In this document: positions 12,489 through 50,709 of the stretch, piece after piece | How positions within the stretch are numbered: the first letter of the stretch is position 1 | How the letters are laid out: each line of letters opens with the position of its first letter | Source: an uncultured Phycisphaerales bacterium | GTDB lineage: Bacteria; Planctomycetota; Phycisphaerae; Sedimentisphaerales; Anaerohalosphaeraceae | Assembly (NCBI GenBank): GCA_937868095.1 | Contig: CALMLO010000014.1 | Coordinates: 62,001-126,000 of the forward strand | Direction: 5' to 3' | DNA: 64,000 bases | Program-made: the position numbers and the translations under genes | Notes under the pieces: model-generated | What the model was told of the DNA's origin: nothing | The model's input: only the letters and a program-made list of their open reading frames with translations | The model's database searches: none

Positions 12489-12494
12489 CAGGAC

Positions 12495-13681: not shown

Positions 13682-13710
13682 TTGAAAAAATCTTGGATTT
13701 TTGATAGACT
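13682..13710 (+). promoter_or_regulatory. Promoter for the GH43 protein gene
   Basis: TTGAAA, 17-base spacer, TAGACT. The expected start near 13717 leaves a leader of about 90 bases before the ATG at 13808. Confidence 0.55.
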
Positions 13711-13807
13711 TTCGAGAGTGGGGGTTAGTGGATATCACAGGATTGGAAGGCCGCTGCTCCGAGAAAAAGGTGTTTTTGCTGTTCAAACGAAGGAACAAAA
13801 AAGGGTG

Positions 13808-24010: not shown

Positions 24011-24039
24011 ATTTTATCCTGTTTGTTCTTTCCGCTGGA

Positions 24040-25392
24040 TTATACCTGGCTGACACGGAGTACCTCTACTGCCTGCTTGCGGGCGGCTTGGACGGCGGGG
24101 GCCAACGCCCCCAACAGACAAGCCGCTACCGCTGAAATACCGACTGCCAGCAGGAAATCAGCTTCAATTTGATTGGGAATCTCCCCAATCGCATAAATGC
24201 TTCGATCCCACAATTGAAAATTCCAATGTTCAAAAAGCCAGTTTTCGATTGAGTTGATATAAATCAGGAATAAACAGCCGACTGCACTGCCGAGCAGTGC
24301 GCCGAAAATGCCGATAATAGCGGCAAAATTGAGGAATACCTGGGCAATTTTCAATTTGGGGGTTCCAATGCTTTTGAGAATACCGATATCTTTGCTTTTG
24401 TGGCCGACGAGCATATAAAAAATGACAAAAACGATGAAGACAGTAATGATTCCGAGCATTAAAAACAGAAGAATCAGCATGGTTTGTTCTTTTTCTATGG
24501 CGACGATTCGGCTGCGGCGGTTCTCCAGCCAACTCTGCACACGCACAGACTCGAAGAGGTTAAAATAGGGATGATTTTTTTGTTTCTTTAGGTACGCTGT
24601 CCATAATTGGCGAACCTGTTCGACACCCTGCTGAAGGGGAATGGAGGATTTGAATCGGATATGAATGGAGCTGATTCGGGGGAAAGGGCTGTCCATTCCG
24701 GTGAGCAGGCGGGCCTCTTTGAGCGGAAGATAAATCATATTTCCGTCAATCTGGGGAATCCCTGTATGGCTGGTATCGGCAAGATAATAAGTTTTGCTGC
24801 TTACCAGGTCTGTTCCGCCCCGCGCCAGCGCCCCGCGGGCTGTGAGTGGAAAACTGCTTAGGATAATGCGGATGGGAATGGGACGAGAGGAATGAATGTA
24901 CTGTCCCTGCGAGGTGCGGCTGATTCCGGCTAAGTCAATACCGATGACACAGCCGGCTTCATGGGGGGCATATTCGGGAACAAAGGCAAGATGGGGCTGA
25001 TTTTTTCGGTAATACAGGGATTGGCCGAAGCCGGTGACAGCGCTGTGACGGACGGGGTCTATGCCCAGAAACTGGACGGCAATGTTCCAGTCGGCTCCGG
25101 CTTGGGTGATCAATCCTACCCCAAAAATGGATGGAGAGACGGCCTCAATAAAGGGCTGAGACTGGAGCAGGGCTATCCAGTTTGGGTCCTCAGGGAAACC
25201 AACCAGCGAATTGGTTGTGAGAATACAGTCGCCGACGTAAAGATGGTTTTTCTGTTTAAAATCGGCTGCCAGGCCGTTCATTACGGTGAGCACAACGACG
25301 ACAATAAAACTGCACAGCGCTACAGCGAGCACAGCCAGCCAGGAGCTGGGCCGATGCAGAAAATAACGGATGGCCAGTTTCCATGAGAGCAT
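24040..25392 (-). CDS. LolC/LolE-like FtsX permease (second of pair)
   Basis: A 450-residue permease with the FtsX/MacB layout: N-terminal helix (about 20-42), a periplasmic domain of about 260 residues, then three C-terminal helices (about 310-335, 360-390, 410-435). It begins 3 bases after the stop of the upstream permease. The periplasmic domain has no lipobox or obvious ligand motif. Assignment to lipoprotein release rests on the two-permease-plus-LolD arrangement. Confidence 0.82.
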   Translation of the reverse strand: MLSWKLAIRYFLHRPSSWLAVLAVALCSFIVVVVLTVMNGLAADFKQKNHLYVGDCILTTNSLVGFPEDPNWIALLQSQPFIEAVSPSIFGVGLITQAGADWNIAVQFLGIDPVRHSAVTGFGQSLYYRKNQPHLAFVPEYAPHEAGCVIGIDLAGISRTSQGQYIHSSRPIPIRIILSSFPLTARGALARGGTDLVSSKTYYLADTSHTGIPQIDGNMIYLPLKEARLLTGMDSPFPRISSIHIRFKSSIPLQQGVEQVRQLWTAYLKKQKNHPYFNLFESVRVQSWLENRRSRIVAIEKEQTMLILLFLMLGIITVFIVFVIFYMLVGHKSKDIGILKSIGTPKLKIAQVFLNFAAIIGIFGALLGSAVGCLFLIYINSIENWLFEHWNFQLWDRSIYAIGEIPNQIEADFLLAVGISAVAACLLGALAPAVQAARKQAVEVLRVSQV

Positions 25393-25395
25393 TGG

Positions 25396-26739
25396 TTATT
25401 CATACCTCAAAAGTCGCACCGGCTGAATGCAGGCCGCCCGCATAGCCGGCAGAAGCGCGCCTGCTACGGAAGCCAGTACAGCAGCCAATAGAATCCATCC
25501 AGCCGAAGGCCAATCAACCGTGTTGGGAATCTGCGTGAACATATAAACGCCTGCTTTCCAGATTTTCAGCCCGAACAGACGGCTGATTTGGTGTTCAATC
25601 GGATTGATGTTGACGGTGATGAACCAGCCCATCAGAATCCCAAGGCCAGCTCCCGCCAGACCGTTGAGGAAGCCGAATATCAGAAACAGGCCTGCCACGT
25701 CGCCGGCGCCGGCGCCGCAGCTTTTCAAGATGGCAATATCCTTCTGTTTGGTTATCACCAGCAGTGAAAAGATGCAGAAGACCAGGAGAACGACAGACAG
25801 ACTGACCAGTCCGAACACAAGCAGCAGCACACCCATTTGCTTGCGGTATTCGGCGATCAGACGGGCCTGAAGGTGTCGGGAGGTTTCGATAGAGGCCAGA
25901 TGGGCCCAGAGAAATCGGGGGCCGGCGAAGTTTTCCCAGATGCCTTGAACAATGGCCAGACCTACCTCGTCTGGGACACCGTCTTCCAGCCGAATCTGGA
26001 TAATATCTGCGACCGGCTCCGGCAGGTTGGGATAAAGCAGTGCCGAAAGTGCCTCCAAGGGCACGAAGACGTTTTGTTCATCCAAATCCCATACGCCGGT
26101 CTGCATGATGTCGGTGCAGGTAAAATGAAGGACCCGCCGCTGAAACCGGATGTTTTGCGAGCCGGCCGCTTCATCGGAGGGCTGAATGGAGCCGGTGGTC
26201 AGGGTCATACGCTGGCCTACATAGCGGCTTACTTCTGGGATGTTGTATTCATCGGTTTTTTCATCAGGTTCCGTCAGGACGCCGATGCCGACAAAACCGC
26301 CGAGCCCGCCGAGATTTTGCGGGTCAAAGGAGACGGTATTTTTCCCTTTCTGTATGAGCAAACTGTCCTGAAGAGGGCTGACGGCCAGCCGTTGAGGCAG
26401 CTGGATTCCCCAGACGCGGACCGGACGCACCTGGCCGGGAGCGGCCAGCAGCAGCCCCTGATTTTTGAGGACGGCAGCGGCAGATTTGACAGCAGCGGCG
26501 GATTCAAGACTTTCAATCAGGGCGGGAAATTCAGTGATCAGCTGGCCGGAAGGGGCCTCCAGGACAATATCGCCCAGATGGCGGGTTGTGCTGGTTTCCA
26601 CTGCTGTAATAAAGCCGGTGAACAGACTGGCGGTAATCAGCAGCAGGGCGCAGCTGAGGGCGACGGCCGTGATGCTCAAGAGCATCATTCGCCGCCGACG
26701 CAGATAGCGCCCGCACAAAAAAACGGATACATGCTTCAC
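25396..26739 (-). CDS. LolC/LolE-like FtsX permease (first of pair)
   Basis: A 447-residue permease with the same layout as its downstream neighbour but clearly divergent from it, so the pair probably forms a heterodimer as LolC and LolE do. The N-terminal arginine-rich segment (RYLRRRRMMLL) precedes the first helix. It starts 28 bases after the lysS stop. Which of the two corresponds to LolC cannot be decided from the sequence alone. Confidence 0.82.
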   Translation of the reverse strand: MKHVSVFLCGRYLRRRRMMLLSITAVALSCALLLITASLFTGFITAVETSTTRHLGDIVLEAPSGQLITEFPALIESLESAAAVKSAAAVLKNQGLLLAAPGQVRPVRVWGIQLPQRLAVSPLQDSLLIQKGKNTVSFDPQNLGGLGGFVGIGVLTEPDEKTDEYNIPEVSRYVGQRMTLTTGSIQPSDEAAGSQNIRFQRRVLHFTCTDIMQTGVWDLDEQNVFVPLEALSALLYPNLPEPVADIIQIRLEDGVPDEVGLAIVQGIWENFAGPRFLWAHLASIETSRHLQARLIAEYRKQMGVLLLVFGLVSLSVVLLVFCIFSLLVITKQKDIAILKSCGAGAGDVAGLFLIFGFLNGLAGAGLGILMGWFITVNINPIEHQISRLFGLKIWKAGVYMFTQIPNTVDWPSAGWILLAAVLASVAGALLPAMRAACIQPVRLLRYE

Positions 26740-35687: not shown

Positions 35688-35740
35688 CTAATTTTTTTGA
35701 TAAATAATTAACAAACAGACAGCATAAAAAAGAGGAAAAA

Positions 35741-36240
35741 GAGTGGATCTGTAAGCCGAGTTCTGTCTGCCGTATCAAGGTACGGGAGGCGGTTATTACA
35801 CTGGACCGATTGTTGCCAATCGGCTCTGTCTGTCGGTTTCCCTGCAGACAAGCAACCTACCCGCCGGAATTGCCCGGGCCAGGCTCCGGCCTATTTGGTC
35901 TTGCAGGCGGCGGGGTTTGCCGTGCCGCCGCTGTTGCCAGCGGCGCGGTGCGCTCTTACCGCACCTTTTCACCTTTGCCTGTACCCCGCATTTGTTTTCA
36001 GAGGGTGAGAATGCTGCCTTTCTTCGCATAGCAGCTTTGCCCTCAAAACAGGTGCGGGGCCATCGGCTGTTTGTTTTCTGCGGCACTTTCCCTCGGGTTG
36101 CCCCGGGCGGCTGTTAGCCGTCGCCGTGCCCTGTCCTGCTCGGACTTTCCTCCCTGCACTTGATGATAGAAATCAGGTATGCTTTTGAATCAGCATCTGT
36201 TTCTATTTCTATTCGTGCAGGGCAACCGCCCGATCCACTC
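35741..36240 (-). ncRNA. rnpB: RNase P RNA, bacterial type A
   Basis: The catalytic RNA that matures tRNA 5' ends. The conserved 5' core GGAGGAAAGTCCGAGC lies on the minus strand near 36138-36160, and the conserved 3' core (ACAGAACTCGGCTTACAG) near 35750-35768. Helix P1 is formed exactly by GAGTGGATC at 36240-36232 and GATCCACTC at 35749-35741, fixing both ends and giving 500 nt, longer than the usual 350-400. U-rich sequence follows on the minus strand as a terminator. Confidence 0.96.
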
Positions 36241-36246
36241 TTGAAT

Positions 36247-36724: not shown

Positions 36725-36753
36725 TTGACTTAATTCAAATGCCTGTTTAATAT
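36725..36753 (+). promoter_or_regulatory. Promoter of the tetR-RND efflux operon
   Basis: TTGACT, 17-base spacer, TAATAT. The predicted start is near 36760, leaving a leader of about 50 bases. Confidence 0.75.
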
Positions 36754-36776
36754 CCCCGCTTCAAACACTTGTTTGA
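36735..36776. promoter_or_regulatory. Two operator-like inverted repeats over the tetR promoter
   Basis: Site 1 is TCAAACACTTGTTTGA (36761-36776), a perfect palindrome with 7-base arms at the predicted start point. Site 2 is TCAAATGCCTGTTTAA (36735-36750), matching site 1 at 12 of 16 positions and lying between the -35 and -10 boxes. They are 26 bases apart. Their position suits autorepression by the TetR protein encoded next. Confidence 0.7.
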
Positions 36777-36810: not shown

Positions 36811-37455
36811 ATGCAAAATCCTGATAAAAATACGGATATCAGTTTCGATACACGTGAACGGCTTCTGGATGCCGCCGAGAAACTTTTCTGCCAGAAGGGT
36901 TTTGAGGGAACTTCCATACGGGATATTACGACTGAGGCCGGCTGTAATATTGCGGCAGTCAACTATCATTTCGGCGGAAAAGAAAAACTCTATGAAGAGA
37001 TGTTTCGCCGACGCCTTCTGGAGAACCTGGAGGCCCATTCAAAAGCAATTGACCGTGTTTGTTCCGGGGAAAATCCGACGCTGGAGACGCTTCTGCGGGA
37101 GCTGGTTCGACCTGTTCTTGAGTCCGCTCGACGGCAGGATCCCTGGTCTCGGATTATTCGGCTTCTGGTCCGGGAGGCGTTGCACCATCGGGTGGAGATT
37201 GACAAAATTGTAGATGATATTAAGGTTCAGTTTCTGGATCGCTTGGCGAAGGCCTTTGAGCAATTAATCCCCGGATTGGAACGGAGAGCCGCTCAATGGG
37301 CAGTGTTTTCGTTTGAGTCTCTGGTACTGCATCCTATATTGTTCTCGAAGCTTTCAGAATTGCTGCTGCCGGACTTTACGGTTGAAGAACTTACGGAGCA
37401 TATTGTTCGTTTCGGAGCGGCAGGTCTTCGCGGTTGTGTGGAAGGGAATGCCTAA
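36811..37455 (+). CDS. TetR/AcrR-family repressor of the efflux operon
   Basis: A 214-residue TetR-family regulator. The N-terminal HTH (residues about 14-60) has LLDAAEKLFCQKGFEGTSIRDITTEAGCNIAAVNYHFGGKEKLYEEMF. The C-terminal ligand domain resembles the CecR/DUF1956 type, of the kind found next to efflux genes. Its stop codon overlaps the next start (TAATG). It probably represses its own operon through the palindromes upstream and is released by a pump substrate; the ligand is unknown. Confidence 0.9.
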   Translation: MQNPDKNTDISFDTRERLLDAAEKLFCQKGFEGTSIRDITTEAGCNIAAVNYHFGGKEKLYEEMFRRRLLENLEAHSKAIDRVCSGENPTLETLLRELVRPVLESARRQDPWSRIIRLLVREALHHRVEIDKIVDDIKVQFLDRLAKAFEQLIPGLERRAAQWAVFSFESLVLHPILFSKLSELLLPDFTVEELTEHIVRFGAAGLRGCVEGNA

Positions 37456-38921
37456 TGGATTCATCAAAGACAAAACTTCTTGTGGTAGTGACAGGATTGT
37501 TGGGTATGGTCGGCTGCACAGTGGGACCGGATTACGAGCCGCCGACGCTGGAGATGCCGGCGGCCTGGACTCGATTGGAAGAAGGGCTGGTCCCCTCCGA
37601 GGATGTTCTGAAAAACTGGTGGACGCTGCTGGACGACCCGGTGCTCGAAGGGCTGATTGAGCAAGCTCTTGACAACAACCTGACCCTTCAGGAATCGTAT
37701 CTGCGTATTCAGGAATCGCGAGCGTTGCGGGATGCGGTGGCCGGCGATCGCTATCCTTCGGTTTGGGCTTCGGGTTCTTATACCCGCAGTCGGCAAAGCC
37801 GAAATCTCCCCTTTGCCACGGAAGGGAGTGACAGGGAGCATGGGGTGTATTCGTCAGGCATCGATGCTTTTTGGGAACTGGATTTGTTTGGCGGCATCCG
37901 GCGTTCGGTGGAATCGGCGCAGGCGTCGCTGGAAGCGACGATTGAGGCCGACCGAGCCGTGCAGGTGAGTTTGTGTGCGGAAGTGGCGGCGGCCTATGTG
38001 GAACTGCGGACGTCGCAGCTGCAGCTTCGATATGCTTTGCAAAATCTGCAGGCACAGGAGGGAATGCTTCAGCTGACTTACAGCCGGTTTGAAGCGGGGC
38101 TCGCTCCGGAGCTGGATGTGGCACAAGCCCGGCAAAATCTGGCCAATACAGAAGCGGAGATTCCTCTGCTTCAGCTGGCTGAGCAGCAGTCTAAACATCG
38201 GTTGGCAGTTTTGCTGGGGCGGTTTCCTCGGGATTTTGAAGTCGGGGCTGCTCGTCCAGATTTGATTCCAATTCCGGCGGAAGGGGGGCTGCCGCCCGTT
38301 GTTCCGGCGGATTTACTCCGGCGTCGGCCGGATATCCGCCAGGCGGAGCGTCTGCTGGCGGCCCAGAGCGCCCGAATCGGTGTAGCAGAGGCGCAGCTGT
38401 ACCCTTCGCTTTCTTTATCGGGTGTATTTGGATTATCCTCGGAATATTTTTCAGATTTAGGCCGATGGTCCAGCCGAACATTTTCGCTGGGTCCGTCGAT
38501 TGATTGGAATCTTTTTGCAGGGGGCCGTCTTCGCCGTCTGGTTGAAGCGGAAACCGCCCGTGCTGAGCAGTTTCGCAAGGCCTATGAGCAGACAGTTCTG
38601 ACGGCGGCCGAAGAGGTGGAAAATGCCATCGCGGCCTATCGACAGGAGCAAATTCGTCTGCTGGCGCTGAGGCGTTCGGTTCAGGCGGCGGAAGACACGG
38701 TACGGCTGGTGGAGACGTTGTATCGCAGCGGTCTGACGGATTTTCAGAATGTTCTGGATGCCCAGCGCACGCTTTACAGCCAGCAGGACTATTTGGCTGT
38801 CAGCGAGGGAACGGTTGTGCTGGATTTGATTCGAATTTATAAAGCGCTGGGCGGCGGCTGGGATGCAGCCCAAATAGAAGAACAGATTTCGCTGTCTATT
38901 TCGGAAGAAAAACAATCGTAA
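37455..38921 (+). CDS. RND efflux outer-membrane factor, NodT/OprM family lipoprotein
   Basis: A 488-residue TolC-like channel. It has a lipoprotein signal with lipobox MVGC (Cys at about residue 21) followed by TVGPDYEPP, the usual start of NodT proteins, and two OEP repeats with coiled-coil helices (LDVAQARQNLANTEAEIPLL; FQNVLDAQRTLYSQQDYL). Translation is coupled to tetR through TAATG. It forms the outer-membrane exit duct for the pump encoded two genes downstream. Confidence 0.95.
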   Translation: MDSSKTKLLVVVTGLLGMVGCTVGPDYEPPTLEMPAAWTRLEEGLVPSEDVLKNWWTLLDDPVLEGLIEQALDNNLTLQESYLRIQESRALRDAVAGDRYPSVWASGSYTRSRQSRNLPFATEGSDREHGVYSSGIDAFWELDLFGGIRRSVESAQASLEATIEADRAVQVSLCAEVAAAYVELRTSQLQLRYALQNLQAQEGMLQLTYSRFEAGLAPELDVAQARQNLANTEAEIPLLQLAEQQSKHRLAVLLGRFPRDFEVGAARPDLIPIPAEGGLPPVVPADLLRRRPDIRQAERLLAAQSARIGVAEAQLYPSLSLSGVFGLSSEYFSDLGRWSSRTFSLGPSIDWNLFAGGRLRRLVEAETARAEQFRKAYEQTVLTAAEEVENAIAAYRQEQIRLLALRRSVQAAEDTVRLVETLYRSGLTDFQNVLDAQRTLYSQQDYLAVSEGTVVLDLIRIYKALGGGWDAAQIEEQISLSISEEKQS

Positions 38922-38958
38922 ATCAATTCTCCACGGAGTTTTGAAAGGATTTCTTACT

Positions 38959-40164
38959 ATGAAAGGCAAGAATGGTATTTCATGGATAATTTTTCTGATA
39001 ATTGTATTGGCGGCTGCCGGAGGGATTTGGCATTGGGTGAAAAGTCGGGCCCCGAAGGAAGCAGCGCAGGCAGGTCCTATATCTTTGCCTGTGGTAAAAT
39101 GCACCATTCAGGATGTGACGGATTTTTATGATGCGACCGGCACTACCGAAGCGATCGATTCCGTGGAGATTCGGGCACGTGTAGAGGGATATCTGGAAGG
39201 GATTCATTTTACAGATGGGCAGATTGTAGAGGAAGGCCAGATGCTCTTTACAATTGAGCCGGAAGGTTATGCGGCCATTCGTGATGAGGCCCTTGCCCAG
39301 CTGAAAGCCGCCCAGGCGGAAAGAGAGCGGGCCCGGGTGGATTTGGAGCGGGTGGAAAAGGCCATCGAGAGCAATGCCGTCAGCCAGCAGGATTTGTCCA
39401 CGAAACGGGCAGCGTATGAATCTGCTTGTGCGGCTGTTATGGCTGCGCAGGCCGCCCTGGACAAAGCAGAACTGGATTTGAGTTATACGCAGATACGCAG
39501 CCCCTTCCGCGGGCGCATTGGGCGGCATCTGGCGGATGTGGGCAATCTGGTCGGACCGACTTCCCGGCCGATTCTGACAACGCTGGTGCGGTTAGAGCCC
39601 ATCTATGTTTTCTTCTATATGAGTGAGTCGCTGATGAAGGGGGATTTTATCGGTCGGCTTCGCGGTACAACGGACGAAGGACAGATGCCGTTTCTGATTG
39701 GATTTGCCGATGAAGCGGATTATCCTTTCCGAGGACAGATTTGTTATGTGGATAATACGGTGGAGCCTAAAACAGGTACTGTCTATATTCGGGGTCAGAT
39801 AGGGAACGAAAAAGAGCAGCTGCTGCCCGGGATGTTTGTTCGGGTGCGAGTGCCTATTCAGGAGCGTCCGAAAGCGGTTTTGATTCCGGAACGAGTGATT
39901 CAGACGGATTTGAGCGGCAAGTTTGTTCTGGTGGTTGGGCCTGACAATGTTTTGGAACGGCGGCAGCTTACGCTGGGAGCCACGCAGGGATTGATGCGAG
40001 TGATTCTGTCAGGGTTGGACGGCAGCGAAACAATTTTGTCCAGCGGATTCCATCTGGCTCGGCAGGGGATTCCAATTCAGCCCGTTTTGGAAGAACAGGG
40101 CGCATCGGAGAAAGCTGCTTCTTCCAAGGCCGCCAAACCGGATTCTTCATCAGCCAAGCTTTAA
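38959..40164 (+). CDS. RND efflux periplasmic adaptor (membrane fusion protein)
   Basis: A 401-residue HlyD/AcrA-family adaptor. It is anchored by an N-terminal transmembrane helix (residues 7-24) rather than a lipobox. A lipoyl/barrel-sandwich domain (ARVEGYLEGIHFTDGQIVEEGQMLF), an alpha-hairpin rich in Ala/Glu/Arg and a beta-barrel domain (YTQIRSPFRGRIGRH) follow. The start at 38959 is favoured by AAAGGA nine bases upstream over the earlier ATG at 38941. The C-terminus is Ser/Lys/Ala-rich and likely disordered. Confidence 0.94.
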   Translation: MKGKNGISWIIFLIIVLAAAGGIWHWVKSRAPKEAAQAGPISLPVVKCTIQDVTDFYDATGTTEAIDSVEIRARVEGYLEGIHFTDGQIVEEGQMLFTIEPEGYAAIRDEALAQLKAAQAERERARVDLERVEKAIESNAVSQQDLSTKRAAYESACAAVMAAQAALDKAELDLSYTQIRSPFRGRIGRHLADVGNLVGPTSRPILTTLVRLEPIYVFFYMSESLMKGDFIGRLRGTTDEGQMPFLIGFADEADYPFRGQICYVDNTVEPKTGTVYIRGQIGNEKEQLLPGMFVRVRVPIQERPKAVLIPERVIQTDLSGKFVLVVGPDNVLERRQLTLGATQGLMRVILSGLDGSETILSSGFHLARQGIPIQPVLEEQGASEKAASSKAAKPDSSSAKL

Positions 40165-40197: not shown

Positions 40198-43100
40198 ATG
40201 TTTAGCAAATTTTTCATAGACAGGCCGGTTTTTGCCTGGGTTGTTTCGATTGTTATTGTGCTGGCAGGGCTTATTGTGCTTCCGCTGCTGCCGGTGGAAA
40301 AAACGCCGGATATTACCCCCCCGACCGTGATGGTTCGGGCATCGTATCCTGGAGCCAATGCGGAGGTGCTCTCAGAAACGGTGGCCACGCCGCTGGAAGA
40401 GTCCATCAATGGTGTCGAGGGAATGATTTATATGTCCTCGATGAGCAGCGATGATGGCGTTGTGGCGATCACTGTTACGTTTGAGATAGGCACGGATGTG
40501 GATATGGCAACGGTCTGGGTGCAAAATCGTGTGTCCCAGGCAGAGCCGCGGCTTCCGGAAGAGGTCAGACGCAACGGTATTATAACACAGAAACGTTCGT
40601 CTAATATCACAATGCTGCTGGGTTTTTCTTCCAGCGATCCGGCTCATGATGTGGTCTTCCTCAGCAATTATATTGAGTTGAATGTCAAAGATGTGCTGGC
40701 TCGTGTGCCAGGGGTTGGTGAAGTGGAGGTGATGGGGTCGAAAAAATTCGCGATGCGCGTCTGGCTGGACCCGGAGAAACTTCGGGCTCGTCAGCTGACC
40801 ACCGATGATGTGGTCACTGCGATTCGTCAGCAGAATGTTGAAGTGGCCGCCGGTCAGGTTGGGGGCCCCCCCAGTTCGTCGGAGCAGCAGTTTCAGTTTA
40901 CAGTCAAGACCCTGGGCCGCCTGAGCACGGAGGAACAGTTTGGCGACATCATCCTTCGGGTAGAGGAGGGCGGCCGGCTGCTGCGTTTGAAGGATGTAGC
41001 CCGAATGGAGTTAGGGGCGGAGAGCTATTACCAGGAATTTGAGCTCAGCGGCCAGCCCGGTGTAGCGGTGGCTGTCTATGCGATTCCCGGCGCCAATGCT
41101 CTGGAGGTAGCTCGCGGAGTGCGAGCCGCCCTGGCAGAACTGGCAAAGTTTTTCCCGGAAGGATTGCACTATACGGAACCGTACAATCCGACAGCATTCA
41201 TTATTCAATCCCTTTGGGAAGTGTTCTGGAGTCTGCTGGGCGTGGTAGCACTGGTGGTTCTGACAATTTATGTCTTTTTGATAGACTGGCGGGCCTCGCT
41301 GATTCCTACTCTTACAATTCCGATTTCTCTGATTGGCACTCTGGCGGTGATGATGGCTCTTGGGATATCGATTAATACCCTCTCGATGTTTGGGTTGGTG
41401 CTGGCGATCGGGATTGTGGTGGATGATGCCATTGTAGTTGTGGAAAACTGTTCTCGTCTGGTTATAGACGAAAAACTTTCACCGCGTGATGCAGCGATTA
41501 AAGGGATGCAGCAGGTAACCGGACCCGTGATAGCGACAACCCTGGTGCTGCTGGCTGTGTTTGTTCCTGTGGCACTGAGCGGTGGGATTATGGGGCGGCT
41601 TTATCGGCAGTTTACTATAACCTTGTCGGTGGCGGTGCTGTTTTCCACGTTGAATGCCTTGACCCTCAGTCCGGTTCTCTGCCGGTTTCTGCTGAAGACG
41701 GAGGAGCAGAAGCAAGGTCGTGTGTTTTTATGGTTTAACCAGTTTATCCGCGGTACCACGGCAAAATATACCAATGTGGTGAGGGTTCTCCTCAGTCGGA
41801 CCGCACTCATCCTGCTGCTGTTTATCGTTGTTACTATCCTGTCGGTGATAGGTTTCGGCGAGCTGCCGACCGGCTTTCTGCCCGATGAAGATGAAGGATC
41901 AATCCTGATTGGAGTACGCCTTCCGGAGGGATCATCTCTTGTGCGGACGAAAGAGGTAGTCGATCAAATCACTCGGATATTGGACCGCACAGAGGGAGTC
42001 CATGAATATGGAGCCATCAATGGATTTTCGTTTATGGATATGGCGGTTGCCTCGAATGGAGCCACGATTTTTGTCAATTTAAAGCCGTGGTCGGAGCGGA
42101 AGGACCCGCAGATGCACGTTTCAAAGATAGCGGAACGATTGCAGAAAGAACTGTCTTCCATTACTGACGCTCTTTGCCTGGCCCTGCTGCCGCCGCCGAT
42201 TCAGGGGCTGGGCCTGGCCGGCGGATTTGAGGTACGCGTTCAGGACCGCGGCGGAGCTGGTTACGAAGCCCTTGCCCGTGTCGGCAGCGACTTTATTTTT
42301 AACGCGAGGAATGACCCGGTTATTACGCGTCTGAACAATAGTTTCTTTGTGACTTCTCCGCAGATCTATGTGGATATCGATCGCGTCAAAGCCCAAACAC
42401 TCGATATACCTATGAATACGGTGTTCAATGCCCTGCAAACATATTTAGGCAGTACCTATGTAAATGATTTTAATATCTTCAGTCGGACATTCCGCGTGGA
42501 AGCTCAGGCCGAGCAGCAATTTCGAAATACGGCGGATGACATTGGACGGCTGGAAGTGCGAAACCGTACCGGGCAGATGATCCCTCTGCGGACGCTGGTG
42601 TCGGTACAGGAGATTTCCGGACCGAAGGCGGTTACGCGTTATAATATGTATCCGTCCACGACCATTACAGGAGTTCCGCAGAGTGGTTATAGTACAGGGC
42701 AGGCGATTCGTCGTGTGGAAGAGCTGCTCAAACAGTCGCTGCCTTCGTCAATGGGATATGAATGGTCTGGGATGAGTTATCAGGAAGTTAAGGCCGGCGG
42801 AAAGATGATGATTTTGTTCTTGCTGTCCTCGCTGTTTGCCTACTTGTTTCTGGCGGCTCAGTATGAGAGCTGGACCGTCCCGGTGGCCATTGTGCTGGCT
42901 GTCCCGCTGGGGCTGCTGGGCGCGGCTCTATTTACCTGGCTAAAAGGCCTTGATAATAATATCTATACACAAATGGGTATTATTTTACTGGTGGGCACGG
43001 TCTGCAAAACGTCGATTCTTTTGGTGGAGTTTGCCAAGCAGATGCACGAAGAAGGGATGTCGATTCGGGAGGCCGCGGTGGAGGCCGCTCGGGTTCGGTT

Positions 43101-43368
43101 TCGTCCGATTTTGATGACGGCCTTGACGACAGGGCTTGGCATGGTACCTCTGATGGTGGCCAGCGGAGCCGGTGCTGCTGCCCGTCAGGCCATCGGCACA
43201 ACCGTTTTCGGAGGTATGATTATGGCTACCCTTGTCGGCGTTTTTGTGATACCGGTCTTTTATGTGGTGGTAGAAAGTGTCAAAGAAAGAACCATCGCAA
43301 TGGAAAGGAAAGTGACTGAGGCGGTTCATCATCAGAAGGAGAAGCACCATCATCCCAAGGAAAAGTAA
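40198..43368 (+). CDS. RND multidrug efflux pump, HAE1/AcrB family
   Basis: A 1056-residue inner-membrane RND transporter with 12 predicted helices and two large periplasmic loops. It starts MFSKFFIDRPVFAWV, typical of AcrB. The proton-relay Asp pair is present in helix 4 (GIVVDDAIVVVEN), along with SPVLCRFLLK and TM11-TM12 FGGMIMATLVGVFVIPVFYVV. A His/Lys-rich cytoplasmic tail (HHQKEKHHHPKEK) ends the protein. With the adaptor and outer-membrane factor it forms a complete tripartite pump under TetR control. Confidence 0.96.
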   Translation: MFSKFFIDRPVFAWVVSIVIVLAGLIVLPLLPVEKTPDITPPTVMVRASYPGANAEVLSETVATPLEESINGVEGMIYMSSMSSDDGVVAITVTFEIGTDVDMATVWVQNRVSQAEPRLPEEVRRNGIITQKRSSNITMLLGFSSSDPAHDVVFLSNYIELNVKDVLARVPGVGEVEVMGSKKFAMRVWLDPEKLRARQLTTDDVVTAIRQQNVEVAAGQVGGPPSSSEQQFQFTVKTLGRLSTEEQFGDIILRVEEGGRLLRLKDVARMELGAESYYQEFELSGQPGVAVAVYAIPGANALEVARGVRAALAELAKFFPEGLHYTEPYNPTAFIIQSLWEVFWSLLGVVALVVLTIYVFLIDWRASLIPTLTIPISLIGTLAVMMALGISINTLSMFGLVLAIGIVVDDAIVVVENCSRLVIDEKLSPRDAAIKGMQQVTGPVIATTLVLLAVFVPVALSGGIMGRLYRQFTITLSVAVLFSTLNALTLSPVLCRFLLKTEEQKQGRVFLWFNQFIRGTTAKYTNVVRVLLSRTALILLLFIVVTILSVIGFGELPTGFLPDEDEGSILIGVRLPEGSSLVRTKEVVDQITRILDRTEGVHEYGAINGFSFMDMAVASNGATIFVNLKPWSERKDPQMHVSKIAERLQKELSSITDALCLALLPPPIQGLGLAGGFEVRVQDRGGAGYEALARVGSDFIFNARNDPVITRLNNSFFVTSPQIYVDIDRVKAQTLDIPMNTVFNALQTYLGSTYVNDFNIFSRTFRVEAQAEQQFRNTADDIGRLEVRNRTGQMIPLRTLVSVQEISGPKAVTRYNMYPSTTITGVPQSGYSTGQAIRRVEELLKQSLPSSMGYEWSGMSYQEVKAGGKMMILFLLSSLFAYLFLAAQYESWTVPVAIVLAVPLGLLGAALFTWLKGLDNNIYTQMGIILLVGTVCKTSILLVEFAKQMHEEGMSIREAAVEAARVRFRPILMTALTTGLGMVPLMVASGAGAAARQAIGTTVFGGMIMATLVGVFVIPVFYVVVESVKERTIAMERKVTEAVHHQKEKHHHPKEK

Positions 43369-43380: not shown

Positions 43381-44700
43381 ATGCGGCTTGTCCAGATTAC
43401 GCCGGGTTCCGGGGATCAGTTTTATTGTGAAAACTGCCTTCGGGATGCGGCTTTGGTTCGAGCCCTGCGGGCGGAAGGGGTTGATGTGGTGCTGGTGCCG
43501 ATGTACCTGCCGCTTTCGCTGGATGGTGATGAATTGCTGGAACGGACCGAGATTTTTTTCGGCGGCGTTTCAGTTTATCTGCAGCAGAAGTTCGGGTTAG
43601 CAGGGCGGTTTCCTGATTGGCTGCGGCGGTGGCTGGATTCGGAGTCGCTGCTTCGGCATGTGAGCAAACGTGCCGGGATGACCAGTGCCCGTCAGCTGGG
43701 CGAGATGACGCTGTCGATGCTGAACGGCCCCAGCGGGCGTCAGGCCGCCGAGTTGGAGCGTCTGGGGGAGTTTTTGTCCGCACTTCCCAATAAACCGGAT
43801 GCGATTGTTTTATCAAATCTCCTTTTAGCCGGCTTGGCCCCGCATCTGAAAGAGCGGCTCAAGTGCCAAGTGCTCTGCTGGCTGCAGGATGAAGACGGTT
43901 TTGTAGATGCTCTCGGTGCGCCGTGGACGGAACAAGTCTGGAATCGGCTGAAGCAGCTGGCTGAGGTTTTCGATTTTTTTCTTCCGGTCAGCCGTTATTA
44001 TGCAGAAGTGATGGAGCAGCGGCTGGAGATACCGCGGGAGAAAATGTTTGTCTGTCCGCCCGGGCTGGAGATGTCGGACTACAAGCCGGCTCCATCTCCG
44101 CCGGCGGTGCCGACGATAGGTTTTCTGGGGCGAATGAGTGCTGTCAATGGGCTGGATATCCTTGCAGAGGCCTTTCTTTCGCTGGCTTCTTCGAAAGGTC
44201 TTGAACAATGCCGACTGCTTGTATGCGGGGGGAAAAATGCGGCTGATGAGGCCGAGCTTCGCCGTCTGAGGGACAAATTGAAACGGGCGGGGCTGTCTGG
44301 ACGGGTAGAATTTTTGGAACGTTTTGAAAAGTCCCAGCGGCTTTTGTTTCTGCAGCGTCTGACAGTTTTATGTTCGCCGGTCCGCTTTCAGCCGGCGTAT
44401 GCTATGAATGTGCTGGAGGCGATGGCGTGCGGGGTGCCCTTTGCGGCTCCTCGATGCGGTGTGTATCCGGAGTGGGCTCAGTGCACTGGCGGCGGGCTGC
44501 TTTATGAGCCCAATGAACCGCGAGTGCTTTGTGAAGTTCTTGAGCCATTGCTGCGGGAACCTCAAAAGGCCGCCGCACTTGGGTCAGCGGGACGGCAGGC
44601 GGTGCTGGAGCAGTTTGATATCCGGCGAACGGCCCGGCGCCTGCTTGGGCGATTCGAGGGGAAAAGGGTCGAGCGGGAATCTCTGGGGGATATTGGATAA
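43381..44700 (+). CDS. GT4 glycosyltransferase with N-terminal Cys-x2-Cys
   Basis: A 439-residue GT-B-fold protein. The C-terminal half resembles GT4 enzymes (VPTIGFLGRMSAVNGLDILAEAF; LLVCGGKN; LEAMACGVPFAAP), but the first Glu of the E-x7-E motif is not at its usual place (QPAYAMNVLEA). The N-terminus, ITPGSGDQFYCENCLRD, has a Cys-x2-Cys not usual in GT4 enzymes; I associate a similar YCGxCL start with a group of planctomycete GT4 proteins. It begins 12 bases after the pump gene and 11 bases before an ABC transporter, suggesting glycan or glycolipid export. Acceptor and donor are unknown. Confidence 0.8.
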   Translation: MRLVQITPGSGDQFYCENCLRDAALVRALRAEGVDVVLVPMYLPLSLDGDELLERTEIFFGGVSVYLQQKFGLAGRFPDWLRRWLDSESLLRHVSKRAGMTSARQLGEMTLSMLNGPSGRQAAELERLGEFLSALPNKPDAIVLSNLLLAGLAPHLKERLKCQVLCWLQDEDGFVDALGAPWTEQVWNRLKQLAEVFDFFLPVSRYYAEVMEQRLEIPREKMFVCPPGLEMSDYKPAPSPPAVPTIGFLGRMSAVNGLDILAEAFLSLASSKGLEQCRLLVCGGKNAADEAELRRLRDKLKRAGLSGRVEFLERFEKSQRLLFLQRLTVLCSPVRFQPAYAMNVLEAMACGVPFAAPRCGVYPEWAQCTGGGLLYEPNEPRVLCEVLEPLLREPQKAAALGSAGRQAVLEQFDIRRTARRLLGRFEGKRVERESLGDIG

Positions 44701-44711
44701 GGAGCAGTCTT

Positions 44712-45398
44712 ATGCTCGAATTGACGGATGTAACAAAACGCTATCACACGTCCGCCGGGCCGATTGAAGTGCTTCGGGGAGTGGCGCTGCGGCTGAAGCA
44801 GGGCGAGTCGGCCTCAATTGTTGGACCTTCCGGCTGCGGTAAGAGTACTCTGCTGAATCTTATTGGGGGGCTGGACAAGCCCGATTCAGGCACCATTACG
44901 CTGGATGGTCAAGACCTGACACAGCTGGATGAACCGGCTTTGGCTGATTTTCGCAATCGCCGGGTCGGTTTTGTTTTTCAGCAGCATCATCTTCTCCCGG
45001 CATGTACAGTTCTCGAAAATGTTCTGCTGCCGACACTGGCCGGCGGGCGAATAAAGGACCGCACCGCTCTTCAGCAGCGGGCTATGCAGCTGCTTGAGCA
45101 GGTGGGGCTGGCGGAGCGGGCCGACGAGTTTCCCGGCCGTCTCAGCGGCGGTCAATGCCAGCGGGCAGCCGTGGCACGGGCCTTGATTCTGCGACCGATT
45201 CTTTTGCTGGCAGATGAACCAACCGGCTCGCTGGATGAACAGACTGCCGAATCCGTGATGAATCTGCTTGAGCAGGTAAACCATGAGTACGGTGTTACTC
45301 TCATTGTAGTGACTCATTCGCCGGTTTTGGCCGGACGGATGCAGCAGCGGTTTAAACTGACTTATGGTATTCTCCACCCCGTGGCGGCGGGGCGCTAA
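44712..45398 (+). CDS. MacB/LolD-type ABC transporter ATPase
   Basis: A 228-residue ATPase: Walker A GPSGCGKST, Q-loop FVFQQHHLLPACTVLEN, signature LSGGQCQRAAVARAL, Walker B LLLADEPTGSLDE, and a His-loop VTHS. One base separates its stop from the start of the giant permease, so the two are translationally coupled and surely form one transporter. It is a second, separate member of this family from the LolD-like protein at 23.3-24.0 kb. Confidence 0.93.
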   Translation: MLELTDVTKRYHTSAGPIEVLRGVALRLKQGESASIVGPSGCGKSTLLNLIGGLDKPDSGTITLDGQDLTQLDEPALADFRNRRVGFVFQQHHLLPACTVLENVLLPTLAGGRIKDRTALQQRAMQLLEQVGLAERADEFPGRLSGGQCQRAAVARALILRPILLLADEPTGSLDEQTAESVMNLLEQVNHEYGVTLIVVTHSPVLAGRMQQRFKLTYGILHPVAAGR

Positions 45399-45399
45399 A

Positions 45400-48300
45400 A
45401 TGAATCTTTGGAAGTGGCTGATTCGGACGCTGGTCTTTGACCGACGCATCGGACTGGGCATTATGCTGGGGGCGGCGGCAGCAGCTGCTGTCCTGACCGG
45501 TTCGCTGCTGGTGGGCGATTCGGTGCGTCTTTCGCTGGCTTATCAAAACCGGCTTCGTCTGGGCCGGGTGGGGCTGGTGCTCAGCGGCCGGCAAACTCTT
45601 TTTCGTGCCCAACTGGCAGCGGAACTATCGGACAAGTTAGATCAGCCGGCAGCGGCGGTGCTGCTTTTGAACGGCTGGGCAGAAAGAGCGGATGGGACTG
45701 CTCGTGCCAGACACGTCTCTGTTATTGGTGTTGATGAATCTTTTGGCCGGTTGGGGCCTTCTGAAGGGGTTTTCCGGCCTTCTTTCCTCGAAGAAGGTTT
45801 GGTTCTTAATCAGGCCCTTGCGGCTCGTCTGAACGTTTCTGCAGGAGATGAGGTGGTGCTCACGTTCGAAAAAGTCGGCGGGCTGTCTGCGGAGTCAGTT
45901 TTGTTTCCGGAAGAGGAGCTTTTGTCTTCTATTCGCCTGCCTGTGTCGGCGGTGGCCGAGCCCGAAGCATTCGGCAATTTCAGTTTGCTGGCGGACTCTG
46001 CCGGTACACTGAATGTTTTTGTCAGCCGACGCGAACTTTCCCGCTGGATTGGGCAGCCGGATTTGGTTAATGCCGTTCTTCTGTCGGAAGAATGTCGGCT
46101 GGAAACCGCCGAGCGGATGCTTCGGGAGACCTTTGCTCCTGCAGATGTCGGGCTGCTGCTCCAGCAGCCGGCAAACTCCAAAGGGATTCAGGTTCAGAGC
46201 CGCCGTGTGTTTATTCAAGAGTCGATAACCGACTGCCTGCTGGCAGCGGATGCCGATGCTGTCGGGATTCTCACCTACTTTGTGAACGAAATCACAAAGG
46301 ATGGGCGCAGCTGTCCTTATTCGCTGGTTTCCTCCGTCGGCTCAGCCAACCCATCTTCGCTGAATCCTTTTTCTCTTTTGGCCGATGATGAAGTCATCAT
46401 TAATTCATGGCTGGCTGACGATTTAAAGGCCGATGTCGGTGATAGACTTACCTTGCGTTATTTTGTTCCGAATGCCCGCGGACGGCTTCTGACGGAGGAG
46501 TCGGCATCTTTTCGTGTTTGTGCGGTGATTCCGATGGAGGGACTGGGGGCAGATAGTTCGCTGATGCCGGCTTTTCCGCAGTTGGCGGAGGTGGAGAACT
46601 GTCGGGAGTGGAAGCCGGGTATTCCAATTGACCTGGGTCGTATTCGGCCGAAGGATGAGGCCTATTGGGACCGATACCGCGGCGCCCCGAAGGCATTTAT
46701 TTCGCTGCCGGCTGCTCAGCGGATATGGGGCGGCCGTTTCGGCAATTTAACTGCCGTTCGGTATCCGCCGGCAATGACTCCTGAGCGTCTGGCCGAGAAT
46801 CTTCGGACCTGCCTGAACCCGGCAGCGGCCGGCTTGACCTTCGAGGCGGTGGGACAACGTGCCCGGCAGGCATCTGTCGGAACGACCGATTTCGGTTCAC
46901 TTTTTTTCGGAATGAGTTTGTTTTTGCTGGTTTCGTCGCTGCTTCTGACGGCCTTGCTTTTCCGCTTTGCCGTGGAACGCCGCAGCCGGCAGATAGGGCT
47001 GTTGAAGGCCCTGGGCTTTCGCCGAGGGCGGATTTGGTTTTTGTTTCTTCTTGAAGGATTTGTTTTGTCTGCGGCGGGTTCTTGTTTGGGAACAGTTCTG
47101 GCGATCGGTTATACCCAATTGCTGATTTGGGGATTGAGAGGAGTCTGGTCGTGGGCAGTGGCTGGGGCTCCGATTGATCTGAATTTCCATCTTTCAACAC
47201 TGGCTGGAGGGGCTGCAGCAGGGGTTGTGATTTCGCTGCTTTCCATGGCGGCAGCGCTGCGATGGTGGCTGAGTCGACCGCCGGTTTTTCTTCTAAGCGG
47301 GACGGCGGAGATAACAGTTCCGCATAAAAGATCTGGATGGCTGCCGGCATCTGCCGTGCTTCTGCTGGCCGGCTTGGGGCTGGTTGGCTGGGGGCTGCAG
47401 GCAGGGATTCATCGAGCAGCTGCGGTTTTCTTTGTTTCGGGAATTTTGCTGCTGGGGGCATTTCTTTTGTTTGTCCGTTATGTTTTGTCGGCGTCAGCAT
47501 GGTTTTTTTTGAGAGGTGCTGCCGACAGTCTATTTGATTTGGCCTGCCGCAATGCCTCGCGCCGACCCGGCCGTTCGATGGGGGTGGCGGCGATGACAGC
47601 GGCGGGGGTCTTCCTTGTGACGGCGGTGGGTCTCAATCAAAAATCACTGCCGACAAATATTTTGGACCGCCGCAATGCTGCCGGCGGATTTGTTTTGCTG
47701 GCTGAAAGCGGCTTGCCGATTCTCGAAAATCTCGAGAAAGCGGCTGTTCGATATAATCCTGATTGTTCGTGGTCGCTGCTCGGTCTGAAAGGATCGGTTG
47801 CTTTTCGTTTGCAGGAAGGCGAGCCGGCCGGCTGTCTGAATCTTAATCGGGCACGACAGCCCCGTCTGCTGGGTGTGGACCCTGCGGCCCTGGCCCAGCG
47901 GGGGGCTTTTTCCTTTCAGGAGGTCCTGCCGGGCACAGCAGAAACCCCCGAAGACGCCTGGCATTTGCTGGATGTCGATTGGGGACCGGATATTGTCCCG
48001 GCGGTGGGCGATGCGGCGACGGTCTATTGGGCTCTCGGGCTGAAGGTTGGCGATACGCTTTTGCAGCAGGATGAGCAAGGCAGGAGTTTTTCTTTGAAAA
48101 TTGTTGCGATGCTCAAGCCCTCTGTACTTCAGGGCAATTTGCTGATTTCTGAAAAGGCCTTTCTGGAGCGGTTTGGCTCGACGGCGGGGTACCGTGTCTT
48201 CCTGATTGATGCTGTTCCGGAGAAAGCGGAGCATCTTTCTGCGGCATTAAGTCGAACATTCCGCCGGTGGGGGTTGGAAGTAGTCTCTACGCGGGAACGT

Positions 48301-48708
48301 CTGGCCCTTTTTCAATCGGTTGAAAATACATATCTTTCCGTTTTTCTGGTGCTGGGCGGGCTGGGACTTTTGCTCGGCACCGTCGGGATGGGTTGGATTC
48401 TCTGGCTGAATATCCTCGACAGACGCGGGGAGCTGGCAATGATGCAGGCCGTTGGGTTTCGGCGGCAGCTGCTGGCGGCGATGCTTGTGCAGGAACATAC
48501 GCTGCTTTTGGCTGGCGGCGTGCTCGGCGGCATGCTGACGGCGATGCCGGCGGTTTTGCCTGCGCTGGCCGGCAGGATTGAGCCGGCACCGGCAGGGATG
48601 CTGCTGGCGGAGTTGGTTTTGATTGTTTTCAGCGGCTGGCTGTGGATTCGTTTGGCGGCTTCTGCAGCTCTGGCCGGACCTCTCTTGAAGGCCCTCCGGA
48701 ATGAATAA
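45400..48708 (+). CDS. Large FtsX-family ABC permease (1,102 residues)
   Basis: A double-length FtsX/MacB-type permease with an N-terminal helix (about 18-38), a large extracytoplasmic domain (about 40-500), a central cluster of helices (about 505-720), a second extracytoplasmic domain (about 740-980) and a final helix cluster (about 985-1095). It therefore carries two FtsX units in one chain, as in the DUF214-type permeases. The start at 45400 is chosen because it directly follows the ATPase stop. The substrate is unknown; the GT4 partner suggests a glycan-linked cargo. Confidence 0.88.
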   Translation: MNLWKWLIRTLVFDRRIGLGIMLGAAAAAAVLTGSLLVGDSVRLSLAYQNRLRLGRVGLVLSGRQTLFRAQLAAELSDKLDQPAAAVLLLNGWAERADGTARARHVSVIGVDESFGRLGPSEGVFRPSFLEEGLVLNQALAARLNVSAGDEVVLTFEKVGGLSAESVLFPEEELLSSIRLPVSAVAEPEAFGNFSLLADSAGTLNVFVSRRELSRWIGQPDLVNAVLLSEECRLETAERMLRETFAPADVGLLLQQPANSKGIQVQSRRVFIQESITDCLLAADADAVGILTYFVNEITKDGRSCPYSLVSSVGSANPSSLNPFSLLADDEVIINSWLADDLKADVGDRLTLRYFVPNARGRLLTEESASFRVCAVIPMEGLGADSSLMPAFPQLAEVENCREWKPGIPIDLGRIRPKDEAYWDRYRGAPKAFISLPAAQRIWGGRFGNLTAVRYPPAMTPERLAENLRTCLNPAAAGLTFEAVGQRARQASVGTTDFGSLFFGMSLFLLVSSLLLTALLFRFAVERRSRQIGLLKALGFRRGRIWFLFLLEGFVLSAAGSCLGTVLAIGYTQLLIWGLRGVWSWAVAGAPIDLNFHLSTLAGGAAAGVVISLLSMAAALRWWLSRPPVFLLSGTAEITVPHKRSGWLPASAVLLLAGLGLVGWGLQAGIHRAAAVFFVSGILLLGAFLLFVRYVLSASAWFFLRGAADSLFDLACRNASRRPGRSMGVAAMTAAGVFLVTAVGLNQKSLPTNILDRRNAAGGFVLLAESGLPILENLEKAAVRYNPDCSWSLLGLKGSVAFRLQEGEPAGCLNLNRARQPRLLGVDPAALAQRGAFSFQEVLPGTAETPEDAWHLLDVDWGPDIVPAVGDAATVYWALGLKVGDTLLQQDEQGRSFSLKIVAMLKPSVLQGNLLISEKAFLERFGSTAGYRVFLIDAVPEKAEHLSAALSRTFRRWGLEVVSTRERLALFQSVENTYLSVFLVLGGLGLLLGTVGMGWILWLNILDRRGELAMMQAVGFRRQLLAAMLVQEHTLLLAGGVLGGMLTAMPAVLPALAGRIEPAPAGMLLAELVLIVFSGWLWIRLAASAALAGPLLKALRNE

Positions 48709-48798
48709 AGACCTTGTTGTTCTCTTTATTCCCTTGTGGACTTGCTTTCTTCGGCAGAAAAGATAGACAACAGGCCTTTGGGTTGTTATCCTGCAGGA

Positions 48799-49860
48799 AT
48801 GATTCCTCGAAGAAAAACTCGGACCGTTCGGGTAGGTTCAGTACGGTTGGGGTCGGGATATCCGATCGTTATTCAGTCGATGACCAAGGTGTTTACGACA
48901 GATGCAGCGGCTTGTGTCCGGCAGATTCGCCGTCTCCAGGAAGCCGGCTGCGGGCTGGTGCGGCTGGCGGTGCCGACACGAAGTGATACCCTGGCCCTGG
49001 CCCATATTGTGCAGAAAGTCTCTATTCCGCTGATTGCGGATATTCATTTTTCTGCCGAACGGGCGGTGGAAGCCATCGAGGCCGGTGCTGCCAAAATTCG
49101 TCTTAATCCGGGAAATATAAAAAACCGCCAGGATATTTTCCGAATTATCGATTGCGCTAAGCAGCATCGGATTGCCATCCGTATCGGCGTCAATGAAGCG
49201 AGCATCCGCGATTTGAAAAGCAGGGATGTGCCCGTCAGCCGGCGTGTAGGGCTGATGCGCCGTCAGATGGCTCGTTATGTGCGTCTGTTTGAAAAAAAGG
49301 GTTTCGATAATCTTGTGCTTAGCGCTAAAAGCGCCGATACATTGCGGACGATTGAAATCACCCGGGCGCTGGCAGAGGATTTTGATTATCCAATTCATCT
49401 GGGACTTACACACGCGGGGCTGCCGGAGGATGCCGCGGTGCCGTCGGCGACAGCACTGGGGACCTTGCTGGCGGAGGGAATCGGCGATACCATTCGGGTC
49501 AGTGCTGCGGGTGACCCGGTTTGCGAAGTAGAAATTGCCAAACAAATTCTTCAGGCACTGGGTCTCCGGAAGCCGGAAGGGCCGCAGCTGATTGTCTGTC
49601 CAACCTGCGGCCGCTGCCGTATCAATATCACAGCATTGGCCCGCAAGATGAAAAAAGAACTGGAGCATGTGGACAAGCCCATTCGGGTGGCGGTGATGGG
49701 CTGCATTGTCAACGGCCCGGGTGAGGCGGCTGATGCGGATGTAGCCGTCTGCGCCGCCGAAGGCAAAGGGTTTGTCTATCGGCGGGGGGTTCGGACGGCG
49801 GTGGTGCCGCAGGAGCATCTGCTGGAGGCCCTGCGAAGTGAAATTGCCCGCTGGAAATAG
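48799..49860 (+). CDS. ispG: 4-hydroxy-3-methylbut-2-enyl diphosphate synthase (flavodoxin/ferredoxin)
   Basis: A 353-residue GcpE/IspG [4Fe-4S] enzyme, the penultimate step of the MEP isoprenoid pathway. It shows VGSVRLGSGYPIVIQSMT, the TIM-barrel IADIHFSAERA, and the cluster region with VCPTCGRC and MGCIVNGPGEA. The ATG at 48799 is preceded only by a close AGGA; the open frame extends to 48736. It needs a low-potential electron donor, which could be linked to the Rnf complex nearby (inference). Confidence 0.94.
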   Translation: MIPRRKTRTVRVGSVRLGSGYPIVIQSMTKVFTTDAAACVRQIRRLQEAGCGLVRLAVPTRSDTLALAHIVQKVSIPLIADIHFSAERAVEAIEAGAAKIRLNPGNIKNRQDIFRIIDCAKQHRIAIRIGVNEASIRDLKSRDVPVSRRVGLMRRQMARYVRLFEKKGFDNLVLSAKSADTLRTIEITRALAEDFDYPIHLGLTHAGLPEDAAVPSATALGTLLAEGIGDTIRVSAAGDPVCEVEIAKQILQALGLRKPEGPQLIVCPTCGRCRINITALARKMKKELEHVDKPIRVAVMGCIVNGPGEAADADVAVCAAEGKGFVYRRGVRTAVVPQEHLLEALRSEIARWK

Positions 49861-49905
49861 AAATATTTGTCAGAACAGCCGGCGGAACGACGCCGAATAT
49901 CTCCT

Positions 49906-50709
49906 ATGTTTGAACGACTTAAATCAGATTTATATGCTTGCGGTTTTGATGGTTTGCCAAAGGAAATCGCTGTAAACGGTGAGCAGCATCAGCTGCAGCG
50001 CACGTTCAAGCACGATTTTTTTGCAGCCACAGGACTCTATGAATCGATCCAGCCCGAGGCGTTAGAGGCGGACACGCTGAAGGTGCTTAAAGTAAGCCGA
50101 ACGCAGCCGTTTTTGGGGCTTCCGCTTTGTTGGCTGGGGCGCTGGCTGTGCCGGCGGGAAGTGGAGATTCTCCAGCGTCTGCAGGATTTGGACCAGGTGC
50201 CGCATCTGGTTGACCGCTGGGGCGAAAACGGATTTGTGTATGATTATATCCCAGGTCTTTCGCTGGATGAAAAGCCGACGATACCCGATGGTTTTTTTGA
50301 TGAGCTGGCCCGGCTGCTGGAGCGGGTTCATCAACATAATCTTTGTTATATAGATTTGAACAAGCGGGGTAATATTCTTGTTGGGCAGGATGGGCGGCCG
50401 TATCTGATTGATTTTCAGATTTCGTTAGTCTTTCGAAGTTCGGGCTGGCTGTGTCGGCTGTTTCAGCGTGAGGATCAGTACCATCTGCTCAAACATAAAC
50501 GGCGTCTGCGACCGGATTTAATGACACCGCAGGAGCGGGAGCAAAGCCGCTGCAAAAGCCCGTGGATTCGGATTCATCGATTGGTGACCAGCCCGTTTCG
50601 CCGGCTCCGTCGGGGGCTTATGCGCTGGCTGTATCAGCGCGGGTATCTGCACAGGCCGCCGCAGTCTGACCTCTCGCCCGAAAATGACCCTGCCCGCTTT
50701 GACCGTTAA
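49906..50709 (+). CDS. Small RIO/KdkA-like kinase, LPS-kinase type
   Basis: A 267-residue protein with a minimal protein-kinase-like fold: Lys62 (VLKVSR), Glu85 (RREVEILQ), catalytic Asp150 in YIDLNKRGN with Asn156, and Asp169 in LIDFQ replacing DFG. The Gly-rich loop is weak. This matches the WaaP/KdkA/RIO group that phosphorylates LPS core sugars or other small substrates. The C-terminal third is very Arg-rich and probably binds membrane or nucleic acid. The ATG at 49906 is preferred over a TTG at 49867. Role in LPS core modification is inference from family and LPS context. Confidence 0.75.
   Translation: MFERLKSDLYACGFDGLPKEIAVNGEQHQLQRTFKHDFFAATGLYESIQPEALEADTLKVLKVSRTQPFLGLPLCWLGRWLCRREVEILQRLQDLDQVPHLVDRWGENGFVYDYIPGLSLDEKPTIPDGFFDELARLLERVHQHNLCYIDLNKRGNILVGQDGRPYLIDFQISLVFRSSGWLCRLFQREDQYHLLKHKRRLRPDLMTPQEREQSRCKSPWIRIHRLVTSPFRRLRRGLMRWLYQRGYLHRPPQSDLSPENDPARFDR

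Follow-up and report, generated by a model that had tools for sequence, protein, structure and literature searches.

A conserved planctomycete gene trio encoding a GT4-type glycosyltransferase and a YbbAP-like type VII ABC transporter

Three consecutive genes in the window (the whole 64,000-nucleotide stretch of DNA from an uncultured Phycisphaerales bacterium that was analyzed here) encode a GT4-type glycosyltransferase, an ABC ATPase, and an unusually large permease, and this arrangement is shared by about a quarter of the Planctomycetota genomes sampled. We favor, at slightly less than an even chance, the explanation that the cytoplasmic GT4-type enzyme would modify a hydrophobic or aromatic envelope compound, which the YbbAP-like type VII transporter would then extract from the inner membrane. 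Neither the trio nor the larger gene cluster described below was found in a literature search, from whose reach most subscription papers were excluded.

Gene order and conservation of the trio

All three frames of the trio are open and correctly placed (Table 1), with gaps of 11 bp between the GT4 and ATPase genes and 1 bp between the ATPase and permease genes; the mechanical ORF of the permease opens upstream of its ATG, at position 45364. Pfam analysis assigned Glycos_transf_1 to the first protein (E = 3.5e-18), ABC_tran to the second (E = 1.3e-36), and both FtsX (E = 1.8e-17), in two stretches, and MacB_PCD to the third. These results confirm the genes, the spacing, and the two FtsX units of the original prediction. 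None of the three proteins reached a curated NCBIfam equivalog cut-off. The genes on this strand run in the series TetR-OEP-HlyD-RND-GT4-ABC-permease, followed by ispG and a kinase-like gene. The ispG gene starts 27 bp 3' of the permease gene and its product is probably outside the trio system. The pair formed by ispG and the kinase-like gene (positions 48736-50709) directly 3' of the trio is kept at a related locus (L145) and was not recognized at another (L146).

Table 1. Coordinates of the trio and of neighboring features in the window
Feature	Position	Strand	Basis
Promoter-like site TTGACT-17-TAATAT ahead of tetR	36725..36753	+	Consensus scan
Palindrome TCAAACACTTGTTTGA, candidate TetR operator	36761..36776	.	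Genome-unique; near-identical copy in L146
TetR-family regulator	36811..37455	+	Pfam TetR_N, 1e-14
Outer-membrane efflux protein (NodT-type)	37434..38921	+	Pfam OEP; TIGR01845 above cut-off
HlyD-type membrane fusion protein	38941..40164	+	Pfam HlyD_D23
RND efflux permease	40198..43368	+	NF000282 and TIGR00915 above cut-off
GT4-type glycosyltransferase	43381..44700	+	439 aa; Pfam Glycos_transf_1; alignment of 66; AF2 model, GT-B fold
LolD/YbbA-like ABC ATPase	44712..45398	+	228 aa; Pfam ABC_tran; LolD and YbbA scores
YbbP-like 10-TM permease	45400..48708	+	1102 aa, start ATG 45400; FtsX x2, TM pattern, AF2 model, Foldseek/VIA, duplication
IspG (GcpE), adjacent housekeeping gene	48736..49860	+	PRK00366/TIGR00612 above cut-off

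Conservation was assessed in 294 Planctomycetota genomes, with thresholds of E ≤ 1e-20 for GT4 and E ≤ 1e-10 for the permease. The GT4 gene was present in 85 and the permease gene in 82 of these genomes; 75 genomes, or about a quarter of those sampled, contained both, and GT4 only, permease only, and neither gene were found in 10, 7, and 202 genomes, respectively. Among closer relatives, the permease was present in 20 of 31 genomes. The ordered trio was found not only in the window's own genus and other genera of its family but also in further families of the order and in distantly related planctomycetes; a contig search with one query sequence returned five loci, all of them planctomycete. 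The arrangement is far beyond chance, because it recurs across many genera and the odds ratio for the co-presence of GT4 and permease is 216, a value whose p value is overstated and serves only as a guide, since the genomes are related and the bins incomplete. One draft genome (G057) has GT4 and ATPase joined in one reading frame of 666 aa, whose GT4 and ATPase parts share 37 and 53% identity, respectively, with their counterparts in the window; a sequencing error that removed a stop codon could also account for this.

Based on these results, the original prediction of an uncharacterized, conserved envelope-type system in which a GT4 and an ABC transporter occur together is supported, also by the one GT4-ATPase fusion. 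It had also described the GT4 as locked to the exporter, with co-production certain to be selected; the association stands, but not in this absolute form, as GT4 occurs without the permease in G142 and the ABC-permease pair occurs without GT4 at the locus in G167, G284, and G311.

When the permease was searched against PHROGs, no match was obtained, and a search of plasmids with GT4 found no full-length relative. The PADLOC matches were generic ATPase ones only, which gave no grounds for a defense-system reading of the trio.

Properties of the three proteins

The AF2 model of GT4 has a confident GT-B fold (pLDDT 93), and the structures closest to it are the retaining glycosyltransferases GlgM, MshA, PglA, and sucrose-phosphate synthase. 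The window protein is like these enzymes in its fold, its Glycos_transf_1 domain, Arg251, and Glu346, the second Glu of the E-x7-E motif. It differs from them in belonging to a family with an N-terminal Cys-x2-Cys-x-[RHY]-Asp motif, of which Cys16 and Cys19 are invariant in the 66 aligned sequences and Asp22 is present in 65. A further difference lies in two positions of the alignment, 256 in the donor site (Lys in 47 of the 66 sequences) and 338, the first Glu of E-x7-E (Glu in 50), at which the window protein has Asn and Pro, respectively, its altered motif reading FQPAYAMNVLE. The two losses mostly coincide and mark a GT4 subgroup that includes the window's copy, which thus combines the GT-B fold and domain of the family with an incomplete E-x7-E and no donor-site Lys. 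In retaining GT4 enzymes, the equivalents of positions 256 and 338 touch the donor. As the window GT4 lacks both residues, it could have changed its use of the donor or could have lost catalysis. The Cys-x2-Cys and modified E-x7-E of the original prediction are therefore real, and the missing donor-site Lys adds to them.

The ATPase scored highest with the LolD family (247 bits, cut-off 308), followed by 205 bits with YbbA (cut-off 336); by these scores it is related to LolD and YbbA and is not an equivalog of either.

The permease has 10 TM segments in one chain, according to both hydropathy and the secondary structure of its AF2 model (pLDDT 84, pTM 0.76), and hydropathy places periplasmic stretches of ∼456 residues after TM1 and ∼228 residues after TM7. 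The top Foldseek match of the model was YbbP (9ge7, E = 2e-16). In VIA comparisons, YbbP (9ge6; Z 24.0, rmsd 6.8, 708 residues aligned) tied with BceB (Z 25.0), and the periplasmic domains looked like those of LolC, LolE, and MacB. Within the first periplasmic region, residues 127-258 and 325-485 form an internal repeat (hhalign score 46.9, E = 2.5e-6, compared with 22.5 for the best of 20 column shuffles and 15.5 for a reversed control), and this duplication explains much of the giant size of the protein. As modeled, the permease is a YbbP-like two-fold repeat in a single chain and not of the MacB type, so that the MacB-type exporter of the original prediction gives way to a YbbP-like one.

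Genomic neighborhoods and alternative explanations

Clustering of the ORFs around 65 GT4 loci and 12 upstream stretches defined a larger set of genes that in many genomes includes the GT4, ATPase, and permease of the trio. The other members encode an SSS symporter, LuxE-like and LuxC-like proteins, an Fe-alcohol dehydrogenase, a BamB-like beta-propeller, a HemN-like radical-SAM protein, a ∼190-aa UbiC-like protein, a halogenase-like FAD enzyme, a hotdog thioesterase, a small membrane protein, and a PaaK-like ligase. Examples of the cluster are found at L046 (positions 816-11659), L040, L042, L108/L062, and other loci, and in genomes whose GT4 is located away from the cluster, the ABC-permease pair still adjoins several of the larger-cluster genes. 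The ∼190-aa protein, which matched 2NWI weakly (E = 0.006), is tentatively taken by us to be UbiC-like from a resemblance of motifs. Strong matches to a LuxE/LuxC-type reductase pair were found in 59 genomes, and 57 of these carry both GT4 and the permease. These neighbors and this co-presence suggest an aromatic or acyl small molecule. A search with a joined multi-protein query found no LuxE, LuxC, UbiC-like protein, small membrane protein, or FAD enzyme in the window's own genome and genus, and the ligase and HemN matches there were generic only. As the own genus is without these biosynthetic partners and 18 genomes have GT4 and the permease without LuxE/LuxC, the trio is a separable module, whose cargo in the own genus must differ or come from elsewhere. 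The cluster, the beta-propeller neighbor, and the TetR/RND operon were all absent from the original prediction.

In the window's lineage, the trio module seems to follow an RND pump and to be controlled by TetR. This arrangement is the basis of the main rival explanation, efflux or self-protection, according to which GT4 would modify a toxic compound that the ABC transporter and the RND pump would then expel, under TetR control, in this lineage. Several observations favor it. The RND gene ends just 12 bp before GT4 on the same strand, and efflux genes lie directly ahead of the trio in two genera of the family, the window's own being one of them (TetR-OEP-HlyD-RND at L146 and L153, OEP-HlyD-RND at L145), with TetR directly ahead of GT4 at L147. 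Beside the promoter-like site, the candidate operator contains the one perfect copy of TCAAACANNTGTTTGA in the 3.04-Mb genome; a degenerate operator-like stretch, TTCAAATGCCTGTTTAA (36734-36750), overlaps the promoter-like site, and a near-identical palindrome, TCAAACAGTTGTTTGA, is kept just ahead of tetR at L146. However, the link to RND genes was observed in only one family, and elsewhere the trio is accompanied by the beta-propeller or by biosynthetic genes and not by efflux genes. We consider efflux or self-protection rather unlikely. The stretch upstream of this operon also contains a bacterial RNase P class A RNA (positions 35736-36241, minus strand; 261.6 bits).

In many genomes the ABC-permease pair has the BamB-like beta-propeller as a neighbor, also at some loci that lack GT4 (L115, L123, L126, and L148), and this is what would be expected if the pair regulated or loaded a periplasmic beta-propeller, as FtsEX does with EnvC, and moved no compound, GT4 being separate. 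Such pure mechanotransmission seems improbable, as the propeller is unlinked in the window's own genome, while the association of GT4 with the permease is tight and one fusion joins it to the ATPase. The sole homologue of the GT4-adjacent propeller in this genome follows biotin carboxyl carrier/carboxylase-like genes (L130, positions 8841-10025; G000:C62). Several relatives also carry a second beta-propeller (PQQ2) 3' of the permease; it was excluded as part of a PQQ2-NHL-FeS-NapH/NosR-like series. At L037 (positions 9958-16026), this series consists of a membrane-anchored PQQ propeller, an NHL-like propeller, a multi-4Fe-4S protein, a NapH/NosR-like polyferredoxin, and a third PQQ propeller; it lies 3' of the permease in G127 and away from the trio in the window's own genome (G000:C57:66000-82000, L163), where PQQ2 and NHL were checked.

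Lol-like trafficking of glycosylated lipoproteins is very improbable, for although LolD is the top-scoring ATPase family and the periplasmic domains resemble those of LolC, LolE, and MacB, the permease is a single 10-TM chain, the scores lie under the LolD and LolCE cut-offs, and the window holds a separate Lol-like system (positions 23321-26739, minus strand) with a LolD-like ATPase and two LolC/E-like permeases, from which the trio is distinct, as originally stated. The LolD-like ATPase of that system is 46% identical to the trio ATPase and its gene adjoins that for lysine--tRNA ligase.

Proposed function and comparison with known systems

For the activity, substrate, and direction of the trio, and for complex formation by its products, we infer the following. 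The acceptor would be a hydrophobic or aromatic compound bound to the membrane, to which GT4 would add a sugar or, its donor site being altered, a less usual group. The permease, a single pseudo-dimeric chain, would be bound by two ATPases, and mechanotransmission driven by ATP would then draw the product of GT4 out of the inner membrane to the periplasm. Onward hand-over might proceed via the membrane-anchored BamB-like beta-propeller and, in the window's genus, via the HlyD/RND/OEP pump encoded in the same operon under TetR control.

This modification-and-extraction reading is favored as the best explanation by the co-occurrence in 75 genomes, the G057 fusion, and the wide retention of the ordered trio; extraction in particular is favored because YbbP is the best Foldseek match, the TM layouts agree, and YbbAP-TesA is reported to extract hydrophobic compounds. 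Counting against it are the loss of two common donor-binding residues, by which the window GT4 could be inactive, the lack of the biosynthetic partners in the own genus, the origin of the fusion in one draft genome, the occurrence of the ABC-permease pair without GT4 and of GT4 alone, and the absence of an adjacent TesA-like gene. The observations fit a YbbAP-like extraction machine and a sugar-transfer enzyme that are tied, ancestrally or repeatedly, to a pathway making an aromatic or acyl compound; that a glycosylated lipid or protein is exported, as originally proposed, is a hypothesis.

A more specific version, which we regard as doubtful, is that the trio represents an undescribed planctomycete branch of type VII systems. 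In it, a GT4-like protein with a remodeled donor site and the invariant Cys-x2-Cys motif would serve, on the cytoplasmic side, as the partner dedicated to a YbbP-like permease that carries an extra periplasmic domain. The two would glycosylate and extract an aromatic or lipid compound of the envelope that is specific to the phylum and for which many species would have a conserved LuxE/LuxC/UbiC-like biosynthetic pathway. YbbAP relatives beyond E. coli are little explored, and a YbbP-like machine that is linked with a glycosyltransferase and, in many planctomycetes, with a biosynthetic pathway offers an entry point to an envelope or secreted compound of planctomycetes, for which the reduced trio of the window's genus and the full clusters elsewhere provide a natural comparison.

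Of the type VII systems of E. coli, YbbAP was the last to be explained (PMC12646458, 2025). YbbP has 10 TM segments with large periplasmic domains at TM1-2 and TM7-8, and YbbAP-TesA is reported to pull hydrophobic compounds out of the inner membrane (PMC12646458). The trio shares with YbbAP-TesA (PDB 9GE6/9GE7/9GE8) a separate LolD/YbbA-like ATPase and a permease whose 10 TM segments lie in one chain and whose large periplasmic domains lie at these two places. In contrast to YbbP, the window permease is ∼300 residues longer and carries the duplicated segment in its first periplasmic region, so that instead of one MacB/LolC-like periplasmic domain per half it has an internally duplicated N-terminal region of 456 aa. 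The partner gene is that for GT4 where YbbAP-TesA has the TesA hydrolase, and no gene for a TesA-type hydrolase adjoins the trio. BceAB likewise has a type VII permease with 10 TM segments (structural Z 25, tied with YbbP), whereas the window permease has a large periplasmic domain on both halves and a far longer chain, with no BceS-like kinase beside the trio. MacAB-TolC and LolCDE share the type VII fold and the LolC/MacB-like periplasmic domains. However, MacB has its ATPase fused to a 4-TM domain, and the separate ATPase gene and 10-TM permease of the trio rule out this identity; LolC and LolE are two chains, and the single chain of the permease, together with its lolCE score of 34 bits against a cut-off of 362, rules out LolCDE. 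From these comparisons, we conclude that the trio is neither MacB nor LolCDE but a YbbP-type variant among the type VII ABC systems.
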